64,000 nt of DNA from Erythrobacter crassostreae (GTDB lineage: Bacteria > Pseudomonadota > Alphaproteobacteria > Sphingomonadales > Sphingomonadaceae): NCBI RefSeq assembly GCF_019204045.1, contig NZ_JAGSPC010000001.1, positions 434,001 through 498,000 on the forward strand, written 5' to 3'. Below the pieces are notes generated by a model. The model did no database searches. It was not told where the DNA came from and saw only the letters and a list, made by a program, of their open reading frames with translations. Below, in pieces: positions 54,029 through 60,591 of the stretch (the stretch's first letter is position 1; each line of letters begins with the position of its first letter). The translations under genes and the position numbers were made by a program.

Positions 54029-54398
54029 CGCCTGTCATTCCTGCACTGTCTCTTCAGCCCCATTTGCACGTGATAACACCCCAGTACCAGTGCGCTGAAT
54101 TGCATCTGAACCGATAAAGCGTTTGATTGCCTAAGGGTTGACCGTTAAAGCCATGAAGGCCTGCGCGGTTATCGGGGACAACGTCCGCGCAGGAACAAAC
54201 ACCTACTGCATCGATCGCAATAGGTGTCTCATAAGGAGGGGACTCGCCGTGTTGTTCGGCAATTCGCCCCGAAATGTGAGGTTTAGAATTCTGGGATTCA
54301 CATCTTTGTGGTCCGATTCGGCGAAACCTGATTCGGGCTTGATGTGAGAATTTGTGCCGGTATGTCCGCCGGCCTGTGAATGGAGAGAAAGCGACTGG
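54029..54398 (+). promoter_or_regulatory. Structured leader region upstream of tonB
   Basis: 370 bp without a convincing gene. It contains four successive inverted repeats: CCTGCGCGG/CCGCGCAGG (54160-54168, 54185-54193), CACCTA-c-TGC/GCA-a-TAGGTG (54200-54226), GGGG..GCCG/CGGC..CCCC (54238-54270) and TCACATC/GATGTGA (54298-54304, 54341-54347). AAGGAGG at 54233-54239 precedes a GTG that opens a 33-codon frame ending at 54347, a possible but unsupported peptide. The region probably carries the tonB promoter and a regulatory 5' leader. Confidence 0.5.
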
Positions 54399-55070
54399 AT
54401 GGCCTACGCTGACCAACAAATGGGTGGAAGCAAAGTTTCTTCCATTATCATAGTGGCGTTGATCCATGTGGTGATCGGGTACTTGCTCATCTCTGGCCTG
54501 GCTATTTCAGCCGTGAAAGAGATCGCCGAGCGGGTTACCACGATTGACATTGAGGAGCCCCCGCCCCCTGAAGAACCGGATGAGCCGCCGCCCGAGCAGC
54601 CGCAGGAAACTGCGCCGCCACCGCCGGTAGCACCTCCGCCGCCGATTAGCATTGCTCCGGCACCGCCGCCGATCCAGACGCAGCCGACGATCCCACCGCC
54701 CGCTCCGCCGGCGTTGACGATTCCGCCGCCTGCTCCGGTAGCAGCACCTGCTCCGCCGCCCGCTCCGCCTTCACAGGCGCGTGGTGTAACGACACGGGGT
54801 GAACGCCGCTGGGCATCGCGTATTCAAGAAAACTATCCGTCTCGCGCCTTGCGTGAGGAAGTGGAAGGCACCGTCGGCGTTCGCGTCACTGTGACAGCAG
54901 ATGGCCGGGCGACAAATTGTTCGGTCACGTCTTCAAGCGGGTCAAACGATCTTGATCGTGCCGCCTGTCAGGGAATGGAGCGTTATGCTCGCTTCAACCC
55001 GGCTCTCAATGATGCCGGTAATCCGACTTCAGCTAGTTACGCGACACGGATTACGTATCGTTTGAATTGA
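54399..55070 (+). CDS. tonB: TonB energy-transduction protein
   Basis: 223 residues: a single N-terminal membrane anchor (SIIIVALIHVVIGYLLISGLA, about 14-34), a long proline/glutamate-rich periplasmic spacer (PPPPEEPDEPPPEQPQE and beyond, to about residue 128) and a C-terminal TonB domain (YPSRALREEVEGTVGVRVTV ... FNPALNDAGNP). Links the ExbBD motor to TonB-dependent receptors. ATG 54399 has GGAGAG upstream; the open frame from 54354 adds a cysteine-rich leader without a ribosome site. First of tonB-exbB-exbD-exbD. Confidence 0.94.
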   Translation: MAYADQQMGGSKVSSIIIVALIHVVIGYLLISGLAISAVKEIAERVTTIDIEEPPPPEEPDEPPPEQPQETAPPPPVAPPPPISIAPAPPPIQTQPTIPPPAPPALTIPPPAPVAAPAPPPAPPSQARGVTTRGERRWASRIQENYPSRALREEVEGTVGVRVTVTADGRATNCSVTSSSGSNDLDRAACQGMERYARFNPALNDAGNPTSASYATRITYRLN

Positions 55071-55149: not shown

Positions 55150-55914
55150 ATGAACCTTTACACTCTTACGGCTGCTGCCACTGAAGCGCCGGTCAACGAA
55201 TTCGGCTTCTGGAAAGCCATGGAAGAAGGCGGCCCGGTCGCCTGGTCGATCCTTGCGGTCATGGTCATCATGTCGGTTGGTTCGTTCTACATCCTCTTCA
55301 CCAAGCTGTTCGAACAGAACAAGGTGATGAAGCAGTATAACGGCGTCAAGAACGCTTTCTGGCGTGCTCCTTCGCTCAAAGAAGGCGCGACCAAGCTTGA
55401 GAAGAACAGCGCATGGCGTCAGCTCGCTGATGATGCGGTAACTGCTCAAGAGCACCACTCGAAGATGGAGGGTGCCGGCAACGAGATTCACTTCGTTGAA
55501 GAAGAACTCGCTCACTCGCAGAACACGATCAACCAGTCGCTTTCTGGCGGCCTTTCCTTCCTCGCATCGGTTGGTGCTACTGCACCGTTTATCGGTCTGC
55601 TCGGTACGGTGATCGGTATTTACCGCGCCCTGATCAATATCGGTATCGAAGGCTCCGCCTCGATCGATAAGGTTGCGGGTCCGGTTGGTGAAGCGCTCAT
55701 CATGACCGCGATTGGTCTGCTTGTTGCCGTGCCTGCTGTTCTTGCCTTTAACTGGCTCCAGTCGCGCAACCGTCGCATCGACGCGTTGATGACTGATTTT
55801 TCGAACAACATCGTTGCCTTCATCGGTTCGAACGGCGCAGTTAAGCCTGCCGTTTCGGCACCTGCTGGCAAAGCCAAGCCTGCTGCTAAACCAGCTCCGG
55901 CGAAGAAAGCCTAA
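55150..55914 (+). CDS. exbB: ExbB proton-channel protein
   Basis: 254 residues of the MotA/TolQ/ExbB family with three membrane segments: helix 1 (VAWSILAVMVIMSVGSFYIL), helix 2 (GLSFLASVGATAPFIGLLGTVIGIY) and helix 3 (LIMTAIGLLVAVPAVLAFNWL). The periplasmic-side glutamate and conserved GATAPFIGLLGTV motif of ExbB are present, and a lysine/alanine/proline-rich tail ends the protein. Forms the pentameric motor around ExbD. Confidence 0.95.
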   Translation: MNLYTLTAAATEAPVNEFGFWKAMEEGGPVAWSILAVMVIMSVGSFYILFTKLFEQNKVMKQYNGVKNAFWRAPSLKEGATKLEKNSAWRQLADDAVTAQEHHSKMEGAGNEIHFVEEELAHSQNTINQSLSGGLSFLASVGATAPFIGLLGTVIGIYRALINIGIEGSASIDKVAGPVGEALIMTAIGLLVAVPAVLAFNWLQSRNRRIDALMTDFSNNIVAFIGSNGAVKPAVSAPAGKAKPAAKPAPAKKA

Positions 55915-56003: not shown

Positions 56004-56537
56004 ATGGCGATTTCGATGGGAGGCGGTGAAACGCCCATGTCGGACATCAACACCACCCCGCTGGTGGACGTGATGCTCGTGCTCCTGATCATCTTCCTCA
56101 TCGCGGTTCCGGTAGCGATCCAGACGATTGAGGAACTCGAAATTCCGATTTTCAGATCGGAAGAGTCGAAAGATAAAGTCGAGAACTTGCTTCTCACGAT
56201 CAGCACGACCGACGCGGCTGGCAACACAGCCCGCACAACCCGGACTGGTTTTACAGGCGCGACCCGTATGGGCGAATGTCGAGTGTATTTTAACAACATC
56301 ACTGCGGTAAGCTCGGAAGAACTTTACGATCAGGCATTTAGCCGCCTTGATGCGATTGTTCAGGCAGCGGGCGGTCCGGAAGCGATCATGGAAGATCCAG
56401 AGCGGATTCCGCAAGTTCACATTCGCGCTGACAAGAATGCGCCTTGGCGCTGCGTCGCTGGTGCGATCTACAATGTGCAGGCTGCGGGTTATCCGACAAT
56501 CGGCTTCATCTCGAACCCGGTCGACCCTAACGGCTGA
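56004..56537 (+). CDS. exbD: ExbD protein 1
   Basis: 177 residues: short cytoplasmic end, then the proton-carrying helix with the catalytic Asp in [20 protein letters not shown] (about 12-31), and a periplasmic domain longer than usual that contains an [13 protein letters not shown] insertion, [18 protein letters not shown] and [11 protein letters not shown]. The two cysteines in the periplasmic domain may pair. First of three ExbD genes in the locus. Confidence 0.92.
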
Positions 56538-56568: not shown

Positions 56569-57000
56569 ATGGGTATGGCAGGAGGCAAGCTTGACGGCGA
56601 GCCAATGCTCGACATGAACATGACGCCGTTGATCGACGTTTTGCTTGTGTTGCTCATTATGTTCATCATCACCATTCCGGTGGCAACGCACTCGGTTGAT
56701 ATCGATCTTCCGCAGGGTGATCCACCGCCGCAGGACATCATTATCGAGCCAGTAAAGAACAAGCTGGTTCTGTCCAACGCAGACCAAATTCTTTGGAATG
56801 CTGAGGTAATCAGTCAGGCCCAATTGGTTAGCCTGCTCCAGGAGACGACCACTATGGCAGTTGAACCTGAGCTGCAGTTTGAGCCTGAACCACAGGCAAG
56901 CTATGAGCTTTCCGCCAATGTGGTTCGCATCATCAAAGCATCCGGTGTGACCAAGTTTGGCTTCGTCGGTAACGAAAAGTATCGCGCTTTTGGTAAGTGA
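56569..57000 (+). CDS. exbD: ExbD protein 2
   Basis: 143 residues; MLDMNMTPLIDVLLVLLIMF contains the conserved aspartate and helix, followed by ITIPVATHSVDIDLP and a compact periplasmic domain (LWNAEVISQAQLVSLLQ ... LSANVVRIIKASGVTKFGFVGNEKYRAFGK). A normal-size ExbD. 31 bp after exbD1 and followed by a strong terminator. Confidence 0.92.
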   Translation: MGMAGGKLDGEPMLDMNMTPLIDVLLVLLIMFIITIPVATHSVDIDLPQGDPPPQDIIIEPVKNKLVLSNADQILWNAEVISQAQLVSLLQETTTMAVEPELQFEPEPQASYELSANVVRIIKASGVTKFGFVGNEKYRAFGK

Positions 57001-57041
57001 GTTTTTCTGAAGCCTAATTGGCTTTCGCACGAAACAGAGAA

Positions 57042-57073
57042 GGGCGGCCCGGTCTTCGGTGCCGCCCTTTTTT
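57042..57073 (+). terminator. Strong intrinsic terminator after exbD2
   Basis: GGGCGGC-ccggtcttcggt-GCCGCCC followed by TTTTTTT. It ends tonB-exbB-exbD-exbD, so the downstream exbD3 pair is a separate unit. Confidence 0.93.
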
Positions 57074-57218
57074 ATCTATCGCTCCTCTTGTGAGATCGCA
57101 GGCAAGTCTTATTCGGCATACCGGTACGCGTTAGGCAACTTGATAGTTATGATATACAATCCCCAAATGGCGGGCATTTCAAATCAGACCGCCATCGCCG
57201 AATTGGGAGAAAAGAGTC
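57074..57218 (+). promoter_or_regulatory. Leader and promoter region of exbD3
   Basis: Contains a TATACAAT-like -10 (about 57151-57158) with a weak TTAGGC -35 upstream, and a hairpin ATGGCGG...CCGCCAT (around 57167-57195) in the presumed leader before the GGGAG ribosome site. Confidence 0.4.
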
Positions 57219-57689
57219 ATGACCAGCCTCGCAACGAGCCGCCGCAGCCGCTTTTCAGAAAGTTACGACCCGCGTGGTCGGCATAAAAAAGCATCGGCAA
57301 TGGGCGAAATGAATGTCACCCCATTTATCGATGTTCTTCTGGTCCTGCTCATCATGTTGATGCTCGCCATTCCTGTACAAACCCATCAGACGACCGTCGA
57401 TCTGCCATCTCCCCCAATCAAACCGATCCATCCGGTACTGCAAGAGAACACTGTCTTCATTACCGCAAATGATGACCTGCTTTGGAATGGGTCTGCGGTC
57501 ACATCAAACCAACTCCGCGCGCAGGTCACCGCTGCGAGTGCGATGGAAACCGAACCCTTGCTACGCTTCGAGCCAGCCGCACTTGCCAGCTACGACCGTT
57601 CTGCCCGAACGATCACCCTCATCAAAGAATCCGGCGCGGAAAGCTTCGCGTTCGTCGGAAACACAAAGCACCGCAAGTTTGGCCATTGA
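57219..57689 (+). CDS. exbD: ExbD protein 3
   Basis: 156 residues with a longer basic N-terminus (SRRSRFSESYDPRGRHKKAS), the helix with the conserved aspartate (NVTPFIDVLLVLLIMLMLAIPV) and a periplasmic domain close to ExbD2 (LWNGSAVTSNQLRAQVTAAS ... SGAESFAFVGNTKHRKFGH). An additional ExbD paralogue in its own transcription unit, perhaps for a different motor state or partner. Confidence 0.9.
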   Translation: MTSLATSRRSRFSESYDPRGRHKKASAMGEMNVTPFIDVLLVLLIMLMLAIPVQTHQTTVDLPSPPIKPIHPVLQENTVFITANDDLLWNGSAVTSNQLRAQVTAASAMETEPLLRFEPAALASYDRSARTITLIKESGAESFAFVGNTKHRKFGH

Positions 57690-57736: not shown

Positions 57737-58126
57737 ATGAAGCGGCTCAAACTTTCCCACTTCCAGCGATCCGGCATGCTAGCGCTCGGTCTGGCGATCC
57801 CTCTCGGCCTCACCGGTTGCAACGCACCGCTAACGCAGTCCGGCATTAGCGAACCAACAATCAATCATGATAGGAACCTCCTGGAAATCGGCGCAGATGA
57901 CACCCTTCGTTGGAACGGAGTTCTTTTCCCGCTTGGCAGTCTCCCAGACCTACTGAAACAGACTACCGAGCTCGCCAAAGAGCCGGAATTGGAGTTTCGG
58001 CCTGCAGCCAATGCGAGCTACGATCTTTCCGCCCAAGTAATCGGCGCGATTAGGGAATCCGGCGTCGCGAAATTTGGGTTTGTCGGCAACGAGAAATACC
58101 GCGTAACAGACCCAAGCAACGACTAG
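57737..58126 (+). CDS. ExbD-like lipoprotein lacking the proton-channel helix
   Basis: 129 residues. The N-terminus is a lipoprotein signal (MLALGLAIPLGLTGC; lipobox LTGC near residue 27). The rest, LRWNGVLFPLGSLPDLLKQT ... AQVIGAIRESGVAKFGFVGNEKYRV, is plainly the ExbD periplasmic domain: KFGFVGNEKYR is shared verbatim with ExbD2 (56569-57000), and LxWNx(V/I)... and ELxFxPxAxASYxLSA align in order. The transmembrane helix with the proton-binding aspartate is missing and replaced by a lipid anchor, so it cannot be a motor subunit by itself. It lies 47 bp after exbD3. A novel arrangement; I know of no description. Confidence 0.8.
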   Translation: MKRLKLSHFQRSGMLALGLAIPLGLTGCNAPLTQSGISEPTINHDRNLLEIGADDTLRWNGVLFPLGSLPDLLKQTTELAKEPELEFRPAANASYDLSAQVIGAIRESGVAKFGFVGNEKYRVTDPSND

Positions 58127-60591
58127 CCTTCAAGGTCTTGCTCATCATCCGGCTCAATCCGCATGGCCTCTCCTACAAGCGTTTCCGCTTCGATCAGCAG
58201 TTCATCATCGACTGCCCCTTGCGGGACGGCTTCCCGGCCGATCATCGTCATCACCGGGACAGCCAACGGGCTAACCCGATCAAGCTCAACATGAACCAAT
58301 TCATGCTGTGACCGCTCAAGCAAGTCTGCCAGCCTTCCAACATCAGTCATCCGTGCGCGGGCATCGGCCCAAGCCGCTTCGAGAAGGACATGATCTGGCT
58401 CATATTTCTTGAGAACATCATAAATAAGGTCAGTCGAAAAGGTCACTTGCTTGCCGGTCTTCCGCTTACCTGGATGTTGCCGCTCTACTAGCCCGCTAAT
58501 CACAGCCACTTCGCGAAATGCGCGGCGTAACAGGTGGCTTTCAGTAACCCACTCCGTGAATTCGTCCGTCAGAATATCTGGCGACAATAGCGGTTTTGGA
58601 TCCTCAACCGGCTTCAGACCCCACACGGCGAGGCAATAATCATTCGCTACAAACCCGCCCGGCATTAGCCCCCGTTCTTCCATCCGCCGCGTGATTAACA
58701 TGCCGAGTGACTGGTTCGCGTTCCAGCCCTCAAACGTGTAGTAAGTGGTGTAATGCTTGCCGGCTCGCGGGAAGCTCTCAACAAGCAATTCTCCGGGAGC
58801 AGGCATCCGGCTTCGGTAATCCTGCACCTCAAGCCATTCGCGCACATCATCGGGAAAACGGCCCCAGCTCGCGCGGTCACTCAACATCGCCTGAACCCGG
58901 CCAGAAAGATGCGTGGTCAAAGGCAGGCGGAGGCCGCCATAAGATGGGATCGTTGCGCTCTTCTTGGCCGCGCGGACAATCACATCCATATCTTTGACGC
59001 TTTCCACCTCCAAGCTCATGCCGGCGAAGAAGAATGTATCGCCACTGGATAGCTGCGCCGCGAAGCGTTCCTCAACTTTGCCGAGACGCCTACCGTTCTT
59101 GAAGCGCACCGTGAGCATTTCGCTATCGACAATGATGCCTGCGTTCATCCGATGCCGTTGCGCCTGATCGGGATGCGCAAGGCGCCACGTCCCGTCTTTC
59201 TCGCGCACGATCCTTTTGAATTTATCATAGGCTTTAAGAGCGTATCCGCCGTTCTCGACAAAGCCGAGCACTCGCCTAAATGCGGCTTCGTCCACCCATG
59301 CATAGGCGACTGACGAACGGATTTCGGTAAGCAAATCAACTTCGTGAAATGGTGCAGCACAAGCGCAAGCCATGACGTGCTGCGCCAGCACATCCAAACC
59401 GCCCGCACGGAATTCCTCGCCATCTCGCTGACCTTCGTCGACAGCGTCTTTTGCCGCCATCGCTTCCAAAAATTCGAACCGGTTGCCCGGGACAAGCATC
59501 GCCCGACTGGCTGTGTCCAGCCGGTGCCCTGCACGGCCGATCCGCTGCAACAATCGCGAAGATCCTTTCGGTGCGCCCATTTGCACCACCAGATCGATGT
59601 CGCCCCAATCGACTCCCAAATCGAGGCTGGCGGTGGCGACTAGCGCGCGCAATTCCCCGCGTGCCATTGCCTCTTCTACCTTCCGTCGCGCTTCTACCGA
59701 TAGACTGCCATGATGAACGCCGATCGGCAGGTGATCCTCGTTCTCCTCCCACAGGCATTGGAAGATGAACTCGGCAAGAAAGCGCGTGTTCGTAAAGATC
59801 AAAGTCGTGCGATTGGCCTTGATTGCCTCATAAAGTTGGCCAACCGCCCACCGCCCGGCATGCCCTCCCCACGGTACGCGTTCTTCAATCGGGAGCAGGA
59901 TTTCGACTTCTGGCTCCGCGCCCTTTTCACCGAGCACCAGATCGGCGGCCTTAATCTCTCCCGTCCCGTCCACCGGTTGCGGGCTAAGCCATTCTTGAAA
60001 GGTTAGCGGGTTCGCCAACGTGGCCGAGAGCGCAACACGCTGGAGATCAGGCGCGATGCGTTGCAACCGCGCCAGCGACAATGCCAGCAGATCACCGCGC
60101 TTGCCTGTCGCGAAGGCATGAACCTCATCAACAACCACCCGCTTCAAACTGGCGAATAGATCAATGCTCTCAGGATAGGACAGCAAAAGCGCCAGGCTTT
60201 CTGGCGTTGTCAAAAGCACATGTGGCGGCTTCTCACGCTGGCGTTTTTTCCGATTGGAAGGCGTATCGCCGCTGCGGGTTTCAACCTTGATAGGCAGCCC
60301 GATTTCTTCAATCGGTGTGAGCAGATTTCGCTTCACATCATGTGCAAGCGCCTTGAGCGGCGAGACATATAGCGTGTGCAGACCGTCGTGCAGAGCAGCA
60401 CCAGTAGAGGGCACAAAGTCACATAGTGTCGGCAGAAACCCGGCGAGTGTTTTTCCCGCGCCGGTATCGGCGACCAGCAACGCGTGACGGCCTTCGCGCG
60501 CCTTTACCAGCATATCGGTCTGATGGCGCCGCACCCGCCAACCGCGTGCGTCGAACCATTGCTGAATTTCGGGCGGGATTATGTCCGTCAG
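58123..60591 (-). CDS. Lhr-type DEXH-box helicase (ligase-associated DNA damage response)
   Basis: 822 residues if read from CTG 60591. Walker A is ADTGAGKTLAGFLP, the DEXH box is VVVDEVHAFATG, motif III is LSATLANP, and the C-terminal half has the Lhr/LADDR winged-helix and beta-barrel region ending DDEQDLEG. This subgroup accompanies DNA ligase and exonuclease genes in damage response. The first GTG in frame (60534) would cut the conserved EIQQWFDARGW segment; reading upstream, the only candidate is CTG within CTGA at 60591-60588, overlapping the DUF2059 stop. Confidence 0.82.
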   Translation of the reverse strand: MTDIIPPEIQQWFDARGWRVRRHQTDMLVKAREGRHALLVADTGAGKTLAGFLPTLCDFVPSTGAALHDGLHTLYVSPLKALAHDVKRNLLTPIEEIGLPIKVETRSGDTPSNRKKRQREKPPHVLLTTPESLALLLSYPESIDLFASLKRVVVDEVHAFATGKRGDLLALSLARLQRIAPDLQRVALSATLANPLTFQEWLSPQPVDGTGEIKAADLVLGEKGAEPEVEILLPIEERVPWGGHAGRWAVGQLYEAIKANRTTLIFTNTRFLAEFIFQCLWEENEDHLPIGVHHGSLSVEARRKVEEAMARGELRALVATASLDLGVDWGDIDLVVQMGAPKGSSRLLQRIGRAGHRLDTASRAMLVPGNRFEFLEAMAAKDAVDEGQRDGEEFRAGGLDVLAQHVMACACAAPFHEVDLLTEIRSSVAYAWVDEAAFRRVLGFVENGGYALKAYDKFKRIVREKDGTWRLAHPDQAQRHRMNAGIIVDSEMLTVRFKNGRRLGKVEERFAAQLSSGDTFFFAGMSLEVESVKDMDVIVRAAKKSATIPSYGGLRLPLTTHLSGRVQAMLSDRASWGRFPDDVREWLEVQDYRSRMPAPGELLVESFPRAGKHYTTYYTFEGWNANQSLGMLITRRMEERGLMPGGFVANDYCLAVWGLKPVEDPKPLLSPDILTDEFTEWVTESHLLRRAFREVAVISGLVERQHPGKRKTGKQVTFSTDLIYDVLKKYEPDHVLLEAAWADARARMTDVGRLADLLERSQHELVHVELDRVSPLAVPVMTMIGREAVPQGAVDDELLIEAETLVGEAMRIEPDDEQDLEG

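Follow-up and report, generated by a model that had tools for sequence, protein, structure and literature searches.

The window analysed here, a stretch of 64,000 nucleotides of the Erythrobacter crassostreae genome (7 contigs totalling 2.59 Mb; 84% complete), contains a Ton locus in which tonB, exbB and three exbD genes are followed by a gene for a predicted lipoprotein. One more ExbD match was found in this genome outside the locus (C1:50470). The features of the locus are listed below.

54354-55070, forward strand: tonB (Pfam TonB_C, 2.2e-20)
55150-55914, forward strand: exbB (Pfam MotA_ExbB, 2.6e-29)
56004-56537, forward strand: exbD1 (Pfam ExbD, 4e-14)
56569-57000, forward strand: exbD2 (Pfam ExbD, 3.7e-17)
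57036-57076, forward strand: terminator-like hairpin with T-run, 3' of exbD2 (-27.1 kcal/mol, z -6.15)
57123-57160, forward strand: putative promoter of the exbD3-lipoprotein unit, containing the conserved TACGCGTTAGGCAAC (57125-57139)
57219-57689, forward strand: exbD3, a third full ExbD with the proton Asp (Pfam ExbD, 6.8e-16; MNVTPFIDVLLVLL)
57737-58126, forward strand: predicted lipoprotein with an ExbD periplasmic domain, 129 residues plus stop (open frame, ExbD similarity, versions in the relatives G009 and G120)
57737-57820, forward strand: predicted signal peptide of lipoprotein type, residues 1-27, with lipobox LTGC; Cys28 is the predicted lipid acceptor
57821-57871, forward strand: linker of 17 residues (29-45) without NIBS, at the place of the NIBS strand in other ExbDs
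57872-58090, forward strand: ExbD periplasmic fold, residues 46-118 (AlphaFold2 and structural matches)
58070-58102, forward strand: KFGFVGNEKYR, including the D-box strand equivalent (identity to ExbD2; structural alignment)
58123-60534, reverse strand: convergent helicase gene, which we take to be Lhr-like, 3' neighbour of the lipoprotein gene (same place in G009, 94.9% identical, and G120, 89.7%)

The lipoprotein gene is a single uninterrupted frame from the ATG at 57737 to the TAG at 58124-58126, as the original prediction had it. It starts 47 nt after exbD3, and its stop codon overlaps the end of the helicase gene. The placement in the same locus as ExbD2 was also correct (the order is tonB-exbB-exbD1-exbD2-exbD3-lipoprotein), although two things had been left out: exbD3, which lies between exbD2 and the lipoprotein gene, and the loss of the NIBS strand described below.

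The product has the lipobox L25-T26-G27-C28, preceded by a basic n-region (K2, R3, K5 and R11) and a hydrophobic core. Cys28 is the sole cysteine of the protein and is predicted from the sequence to be lipidated. The lipobox reads ITGC in G009 and LSSC in G120. The N-terminal transmembrane helix, which in ExbD sits inside the ExbB pentamer, is absent, a lipoprotein-type signal peptide stands in its place and no residue aligns with the proton aspartate (Asp25); thus, the proposed replacement of the aspartate-bearing proton helix by a signal peptide ending in LTGC was confirmed. As a control, a common lipobox pattern was applied to the ExbD frames of the fetched loci, with any M, V or L accepted as start. 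In its strict form it matched none of 338 distinct Asp-bearing frames; of 53 frames lacking the Asp motif, some of them fragments, it matched 3, all belonging to the lipoprotein family. The loose form added one frame to each class (L132 and L065).

Single BLASTP comparisons showed 44 of 92 residues (48%) identical to ExbD2 (E 2e-26) and 34 of 76 (45%) identical to ExbD3 (E 5e-19). Among the sequence blocks said to be shared with ExbD2, KFGFVGNEKYR was identical at all 11 positions, whereas the others proved merely similar (LRWNG versus ILWNA; ELEFRPAANASYDLSA versus ELQFEPEPQASYELSA). In Pfam, residues 41-116 aligned to positions 49-124 only of the ExbD profile (PF02472; E 2e-4), leaving the helix part unmatched, and the score of 21.9 bits was below the curated cut-off of 25.4. 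ExbD was the only match in a scan with E up to 1, and an OmpA-like match was absent.

Between exbD2 and exbD3, the hairpin at 57036-57076 was missed by a simple consensus scan. With a slightly looser pattern, 14 of 49 loci, the present one among them, had TACGCGTTAGGCAAC between exbD2 and the third ExbD gene; G009 and G120 carry a copy there that differs at one position, and this genome has a single site at up to one mismatch. Five of 13 whole genomes carry it, once each, without mismatch and always between exbD2 and the third ExbD gene. A reversed control pattern gave nine matches in 7 of the 13 genomes at the same tolerance; the placement of the TACGCGTTAGGCAAC sites, not their number, is therefore informative. 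A sigma-70-like match at 57132-57160 was by itself not above chance. On this sequence pattern, TACGCGTTAGGCAAC at 57125-57139 is a putative dedicated promoter or operator and, together with the hairpin, it suggests that exbD3 and the lipoprotein gene likely form a transcription unit of their own. In Sphingobium SYK-6, according to the accessible part of the report, disruption of tonB1-exbB1-exbD1-exbD2 was not achievable (PMC8599685). By analogy, the core motor is probably required in this genome as well, and the exbD3-lipoprotein unit would be an add-on.

In the TonB of this locus, ERVTTIDIEEPPPP lies directly after the membrane helix, in a segment that recurs in many frames of relatives, and we infer that it is a candidate D-box.

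Predicted fold and the missing NIBS strand

The AlphaFold2 model of the lipoprotein, built on a 40-row alignment, has block means of pLDDT of 95-97 over residues 41-110, 84 over 111-120 and 50-66 over signal and linker; no helix was modelled at the signal peptide (pLDDT 50-55). The order of elements is E-E-E-H-E-H-E, and residues 46-118 are predicted with good confidence to adopt the ExbD fold. Foldseek (E up to 0.001) returned five matches, all of them ExbD. In VIA-align, the Z scores were 10.9 for 8p9r, 10.7 for 8vgc, 10.5 for 8vgd, 9.9 for TolR 5by4, 9.4 for the ExbD dimer 8pek, 8.0 for TolR 2jwk and 7.7 for ExbD 2pfu, the next, unrelated row having 6.0. Thus, the C-terminal part, for which a non-ExbD fold would have counted against the original prediction, is ExbD-like in structure prediction, with 8p9r as the closest match. 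The TolR periplasmic domain (5by4 and 2jwk) is alike in fold, but it has only 10% identity to the lipoprotein, which lies outside a tol-pal locus and lacks the membrane helix.

Residues 44-117 of the model superpose on residues 61-134 of E. coli ExbD, so that F115 corresponds to Leu132 and Y95 to Tyr112. F115 is one of two columns invariant among the 40 aligned sequences, and the Leu132 position is Phe in the lipoprotein as in ExbD2. Y95 and the loop residues P83, P89 and A93 are invariant in at least 90% of the 40 ExbDs and lipoproteins, and P89 occupies the position of Ala106 at the dimer interface. Such near-invariance, and the dimeric state of the ExbD periplasmic domain given in the accessible part of PMC10771500, would also suit a partner in heterodimers: pairing with ExbD2 or ExbD3 at the periplasmic interface might leave one arm of the motor free and change how the motor switches. 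We consider this quite improbable; the lipoprotein cannot contribute the motor's second pore helix.

The strand in which the lipoproteins depart from the ExbD domain is NIBS, whose residues fall in profile columns 36-41 and are followed by proline at column 42. These columns were placed by what we take to be E. coli ExbD numbering. The Leu-Pro core (columns 41-42) was found in 92 of 92 ExbD1, 89 of 89 ExbD2 and 55 of 60 ExbD3 domains, in 22 of 25 proteins encoded in the slot after exbD3 (slot-4, see below) and in none of the three lipoproteins. The corresponding counts for hydrophobic residues at both columns 37 and 39 were 92/92, 89/89, 33/60, 23/25 and 0/3. Identical domains were entered once and the fragment L070 was excluded; some slot-4 rows are fragmentary or cut by contig ends. 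With helix, aspartate and NIBS all absent, the product of 57737-58126 is not to be classed as an ExbD but as a predicted lipoprotein of ExbD descent.

The D-box-binding strand and the dimer tyrosine are both present (KFGFVG with F115, and Y95). In the part available of Loll et al., the TonB D-box pairs with ExbD residues 130-134 of both chains and L132Q does not bind (PMC10907165). FGFVGNEK is the longest run invariant across the three lipoproteins, whose sequences indicate that the D-box strand is their best-kept portion. In the accessible sections of Zinke et al. (PMC10771500), the groove is contested by NIBS and TonB, and a disordered strand of TonB replaces NIBS upon opening; the E. coli ExbD domain crystallised with a TonB peptide was a NIBS-deleted form; V47C (locked closed) and V47R (locked open) gave no growth and V47G poor growth; and the domain binds transiently to peptidoglycan glycans. 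How the ExbD periplasmic domain passes force to TonB, and what the open and closed states of NIBS contribute, has been argued from engineered mutants. The window appears to hold a natural NIBS-less domain, off the motor and on a predicted lipid anchor, beside three intact ExbDs.

Distribution, selection and origin of the lipoprotein

The lipoprotein turned up in two of 61 genomes in a protein search; when 114 genomes of the genus were searched with a profile, three had it, namely this genome, G009 (70% identity) and G120 (39%). Some ExbD match was present in 106 of the 114; the profile matches below the three lipoproteins begin at E 2e-32, and those read from DNA carry the helix. The other eight genomes (67-82% complete) yielded no profile match at all. 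A sample of 396 genomes from the order, which does not contain G120, was also searched; among the matches listed at E up to 1e-20, only those of this genome (G000) and G009 exceeded the ExbD2 level. The order tonB-exbB-exbD1-exbD2-exbD3-lipoprotein-helicase is common to all three genomes, in which the exbD3 and lipoprotein genes are 47, 50 and 46 nt apart. Thus, the expectation of orthologues with a conserved, intact frame holds for G009 and G120, but the distribution is narrow; the rarity of the lipoprotein also implies that the motor does not need it. Among the open-access papers covered, no lipoprotein ExbD and no Asp-less ExbD family was found in titles and abstract openings, nor was either present in the accessible parts of PMC12204202 and PMC13367063.

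Between this genome and G009, the lipoprotein genes differ at 23, 21 and 39 sites of codon positions 1, 2 and 3, respectively (third positions, 39 of 83). The Nei-Gojobori dN/dS was 0.175/0.564 = 0.31 for the whole gene and 0.149/0.772 = 0.19 for the domain (residues 46-123), while signal and linker (residues 1-45) were less constrained (0.186/0.386) and exbD2 had 0.018/0.471 = 0.04. Against G120, dS was 1.58, near saturation. On these figures, selection appears to maintain the lipoprotein domain, less strictly than ExbD2. These data also bear on a decaying duplicate, that is, an ExbD copy with a signal peptide captured by chance, functionless and on its way out. Occurrence in only three of 114 genomes and a whole-gene dN/dS well above that of ExbD2 would agree with such decay; however, frame, lipobox, D-box strand and position are intact in G009 and, even at 39% identity, in G120, and the domain has the lower ratio given above. 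We regard decay, too, as quite improbable.

A side observation concerns exbD3 itself, which has diverged far more from its counterpart in G009 (L116:5008-5502; dN/dS 0.311/2.14) than its neighbours exbD2 and the lipoprotein gene have from theirs; from the sequences, it looks as if one lineage had undergone replacement or conversion.

In a tree of ExbD1 and ExbD2 from 50 loci, the three lipoprotein genomes fall within one 10-genome clade (support 97/90), within which they do not form one group. The clade also contains G036 and G004, whose third ExbD is ExbD2-like (for G004, the copy nearest exbD1 was used as ExbD2), and its other members are without the lipoprotein, a point in favour of decay. 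The ExbD2-like third copies of G036 and G004 (D3b) are full ExbDs with helix and Asp, unlike the lipoprotein. By sequence, the lipoproteins are closest to ExbD2 and to the ExbD2-like third copies; the G036 copy is the closest row to the G120 lipoprotein (54% over 81 columns). Over 95 columns, too few to separate these copies from the slot-4 family as nearest kin, the AU p values were 0.296, 0.239 and 0.352 with the lipoproteins constrained to one clade with the slot-4 proteins, with ExbD2 and with the ExbD2-like third copies, respectively; as one clade by themselves, they had an AU p of 0.572 and occurred in 42% of 200 bootstrap trees. An earlier domain tree of 90 rows and 93 columns had too little strength to speak on descent. 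Most simply, ExbD2 would have been duplicated and one copy given a new anchor within the 10-genome clade.

A change of transmembrane helix to signal peptide in place, with LAIP aligned on the LAIP at the end of the ExbD3 helix, was not supported: core-preserving shuffles reached the alignment score in 226, 257, 368 and 833 of 1000 cases in four comparisons.

A proposed passive domain for TonB or peptidoglycan

Our favoured reading, which we hold tentatively, is that the lipoprotein is a motor-free, constitutively open TonB- and peptidoglycan-binding domain on a lipid anchor, passive and in competition with ExbD2 and ExbD3 for TonB. The exported protein would carry just the periplasmic half of ExbD. 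Since it has no transmembrane helix, proton aspartate or NIBS, it should stay outside the proton channel, and its groove could not be closed from within. Tyr95 and its loop, the conserved interface for dimers, would most likely let it pair with itself (or with ExbD2 or ExbD3), and it would hold the D-box strand of TonB, and possibly glycan chains, without doing work. As a passive docking or holding site, it might thereby tune the amount of TonB that is coupled, and it may affect uptake.

Compared with the ExbD of Ton systems (8p9r and 8vgc), the lipoprotein is alike in periplasmic fold, dimer tyrosine, D-box strand and tonB-exbB-exbD neighbourhood, and differs in its missing helix, proton Asp and NIBS, its lipoprotein-type signal and its Pfam score under the cut-off. 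That its fold is nearest to these two E. coli structures with bound TonB or D-box peptide speaks for the open domain, although it is in part a trivial outcome that structures lacking NIBS score best, as their chains hold just this domain. Against it, the D-box strand is the least certain part of the domain model (the block at 111-120). Phe at the Leu132 position, P89 at that of Ala106, the rarity of the gene and the looser constraint on signal and linker also count against it, as does the frequent lack of the paired hydrophobic residues (columns 37 and 39) in ordinary ExbD3s. The original prediction had proposed competition for TonB or peptidoglycan; this is a structure-based suggestion, consistent with the D-box strand and dimer tyrosine kept in the model and the competing NIBS lost, and the interpretation as a whole is partly supported. 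Capping of inactive motors and setting of stoichiometry, proposed there as well, would be further conceivable roles. Deletion or addition of the lipoprotein would ask whether an uncoupled open ExbD domain aids or blocks TonB.

The membrane in which the protein ends up is important for this reading. In E. coli, lipoproteins whose residue after the Cys is not Asp are sorted to the outer membrane. The residue after Cys28 is Asn here, Tyr in G009 and Asn in G120, and by the E. coli rule this points to the outer membrane. If so sorted, the lipoprotein may find the membrane-proximal D-box of TonB hard to reach. A protein of this kind might be a tether: sorted by Lol to the inner face of the outer membrane, it would bind peptidoglycan as a Pal-like anchor near transporters and have no role with TonB. 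Besides the residue after Cys, which is never Asp in the three lipoproteins, this would agree with the glycan binding of the ExbD domain (accessible part of PMC10771500) and with the cryptic peptidoglycan binding that TolR shows without its swapped ends (accessible part of PMC4646322). The TolR construct that binds, however, is also without the C-terminal strand that the lipoprotein keeps (same part of PMC4646322), and conservation is strongest in the D-box strand and not in any known peptidoglycan motif. Pal, an OmpA-like outer-membrane lipoprotein, resembles the product in its lipid anchor and possibly in a peptidoglycan-binding periplasmic domain, but it belongs to a different domain family, and the Pfam scan gave no OmpA-like match. 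A pure tether is unlikely in our view. For the passive open domain, it depends on the final membrane whether it would store TonB, brake TonB or anchor at peptidoglycan.

Asp-less membrane-spanning ExbDs in the slot after exbD3

Reading of the DNA showed that the slot after exbD3 holds an extra gene for an ExbD-derived, membrane-spanning protein in at least 25 of the 114 genus genomes. These slot-4 genes (26 in 25 genomes, G110 having two; loci L117, L118, L125, L133 and L165-L186) were collected from profile matches and an earlier locus set, which makes 25 a lower bound. From the likely start, they mostly encode 165-220 residues. Their helix aligns by eye, without gaps, with that of ExbD2 (L056: HGEPIGRPDSLPILLFVFTLIA on DGEPMLDMNMTPLIDVLLVLLI), and the aspartate position is taken by F (18), I (3), L (3) or S (1), so that Asp is missing in 25 of the 26 genes. 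An AlphaFold2 model from an 18-row alignment has a helix at 31-48, the ExbD order of elements and a mean pLDDT of 72. Gain or loss of the slot-4 gene accounts for at least 14 changes on the ExbD1 and ExbD2 tree. G094 has a slot-4-type gene directly after exbD2. Among the slot-4 genes read in the genus, that of G066 (L176) is the sole one keeping D (APFADVLL), and it is perhaps an intermediate.

Like the lipoprotein, the slot-4 proteins are encoded by an extra ExbD-derived gene right after exbD3 and have lost the Asp. They differ from it in that the helix and mostly NIBS (22/25) are kept, the D-box strand mostly has FCF-like residues and there is mostly a C-terminal extension with Cys. With the D-box pattern mostly lost and cysteines gained, the slot-4 proteins and the lipoprotein have retained ExbD parts that complement each other. 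The Asp-less slot-4 ExbDs are commoner than the lipoprotein. None of the three lipoprotein loci has a slot-4 gene, which says little because a chance overlap of less than one is expected.

It is conceivable, though we doubt it on balance, that in this genus (Erythrobacter and its relatives in Qipengyuania) the Ton loci evolved a class of ExbD parts, encoded behind exbD3, that tune the motor and do not drive it. Many species would have the membrane-spanning type without the Asp, and a single small clade the type on a lipid anchor, which lacks NIBS, would be permanently open and would hold the D-box independently of the proton motive force. The companion question raised by the Asp-less ExbDs is how a motor with a proton-dead ExbD arm acts.

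Two minor observations concern other loci. L065:5996-6553 encodes a slot-4 ExbD with NIBS whose N-terminus (SVLIVSAILAGIGC) fits the loose, not the strict, lipobox; it is a possible second lipid-anchored ExbD, as far as this motif indicates. In addition, two exbD3 genes have a changed proton Asp, with Gly in L054:4928-5992 (TPLIGVMLVLL) and Glu in L072:5898-6353 (TPLIEVMLVLL).
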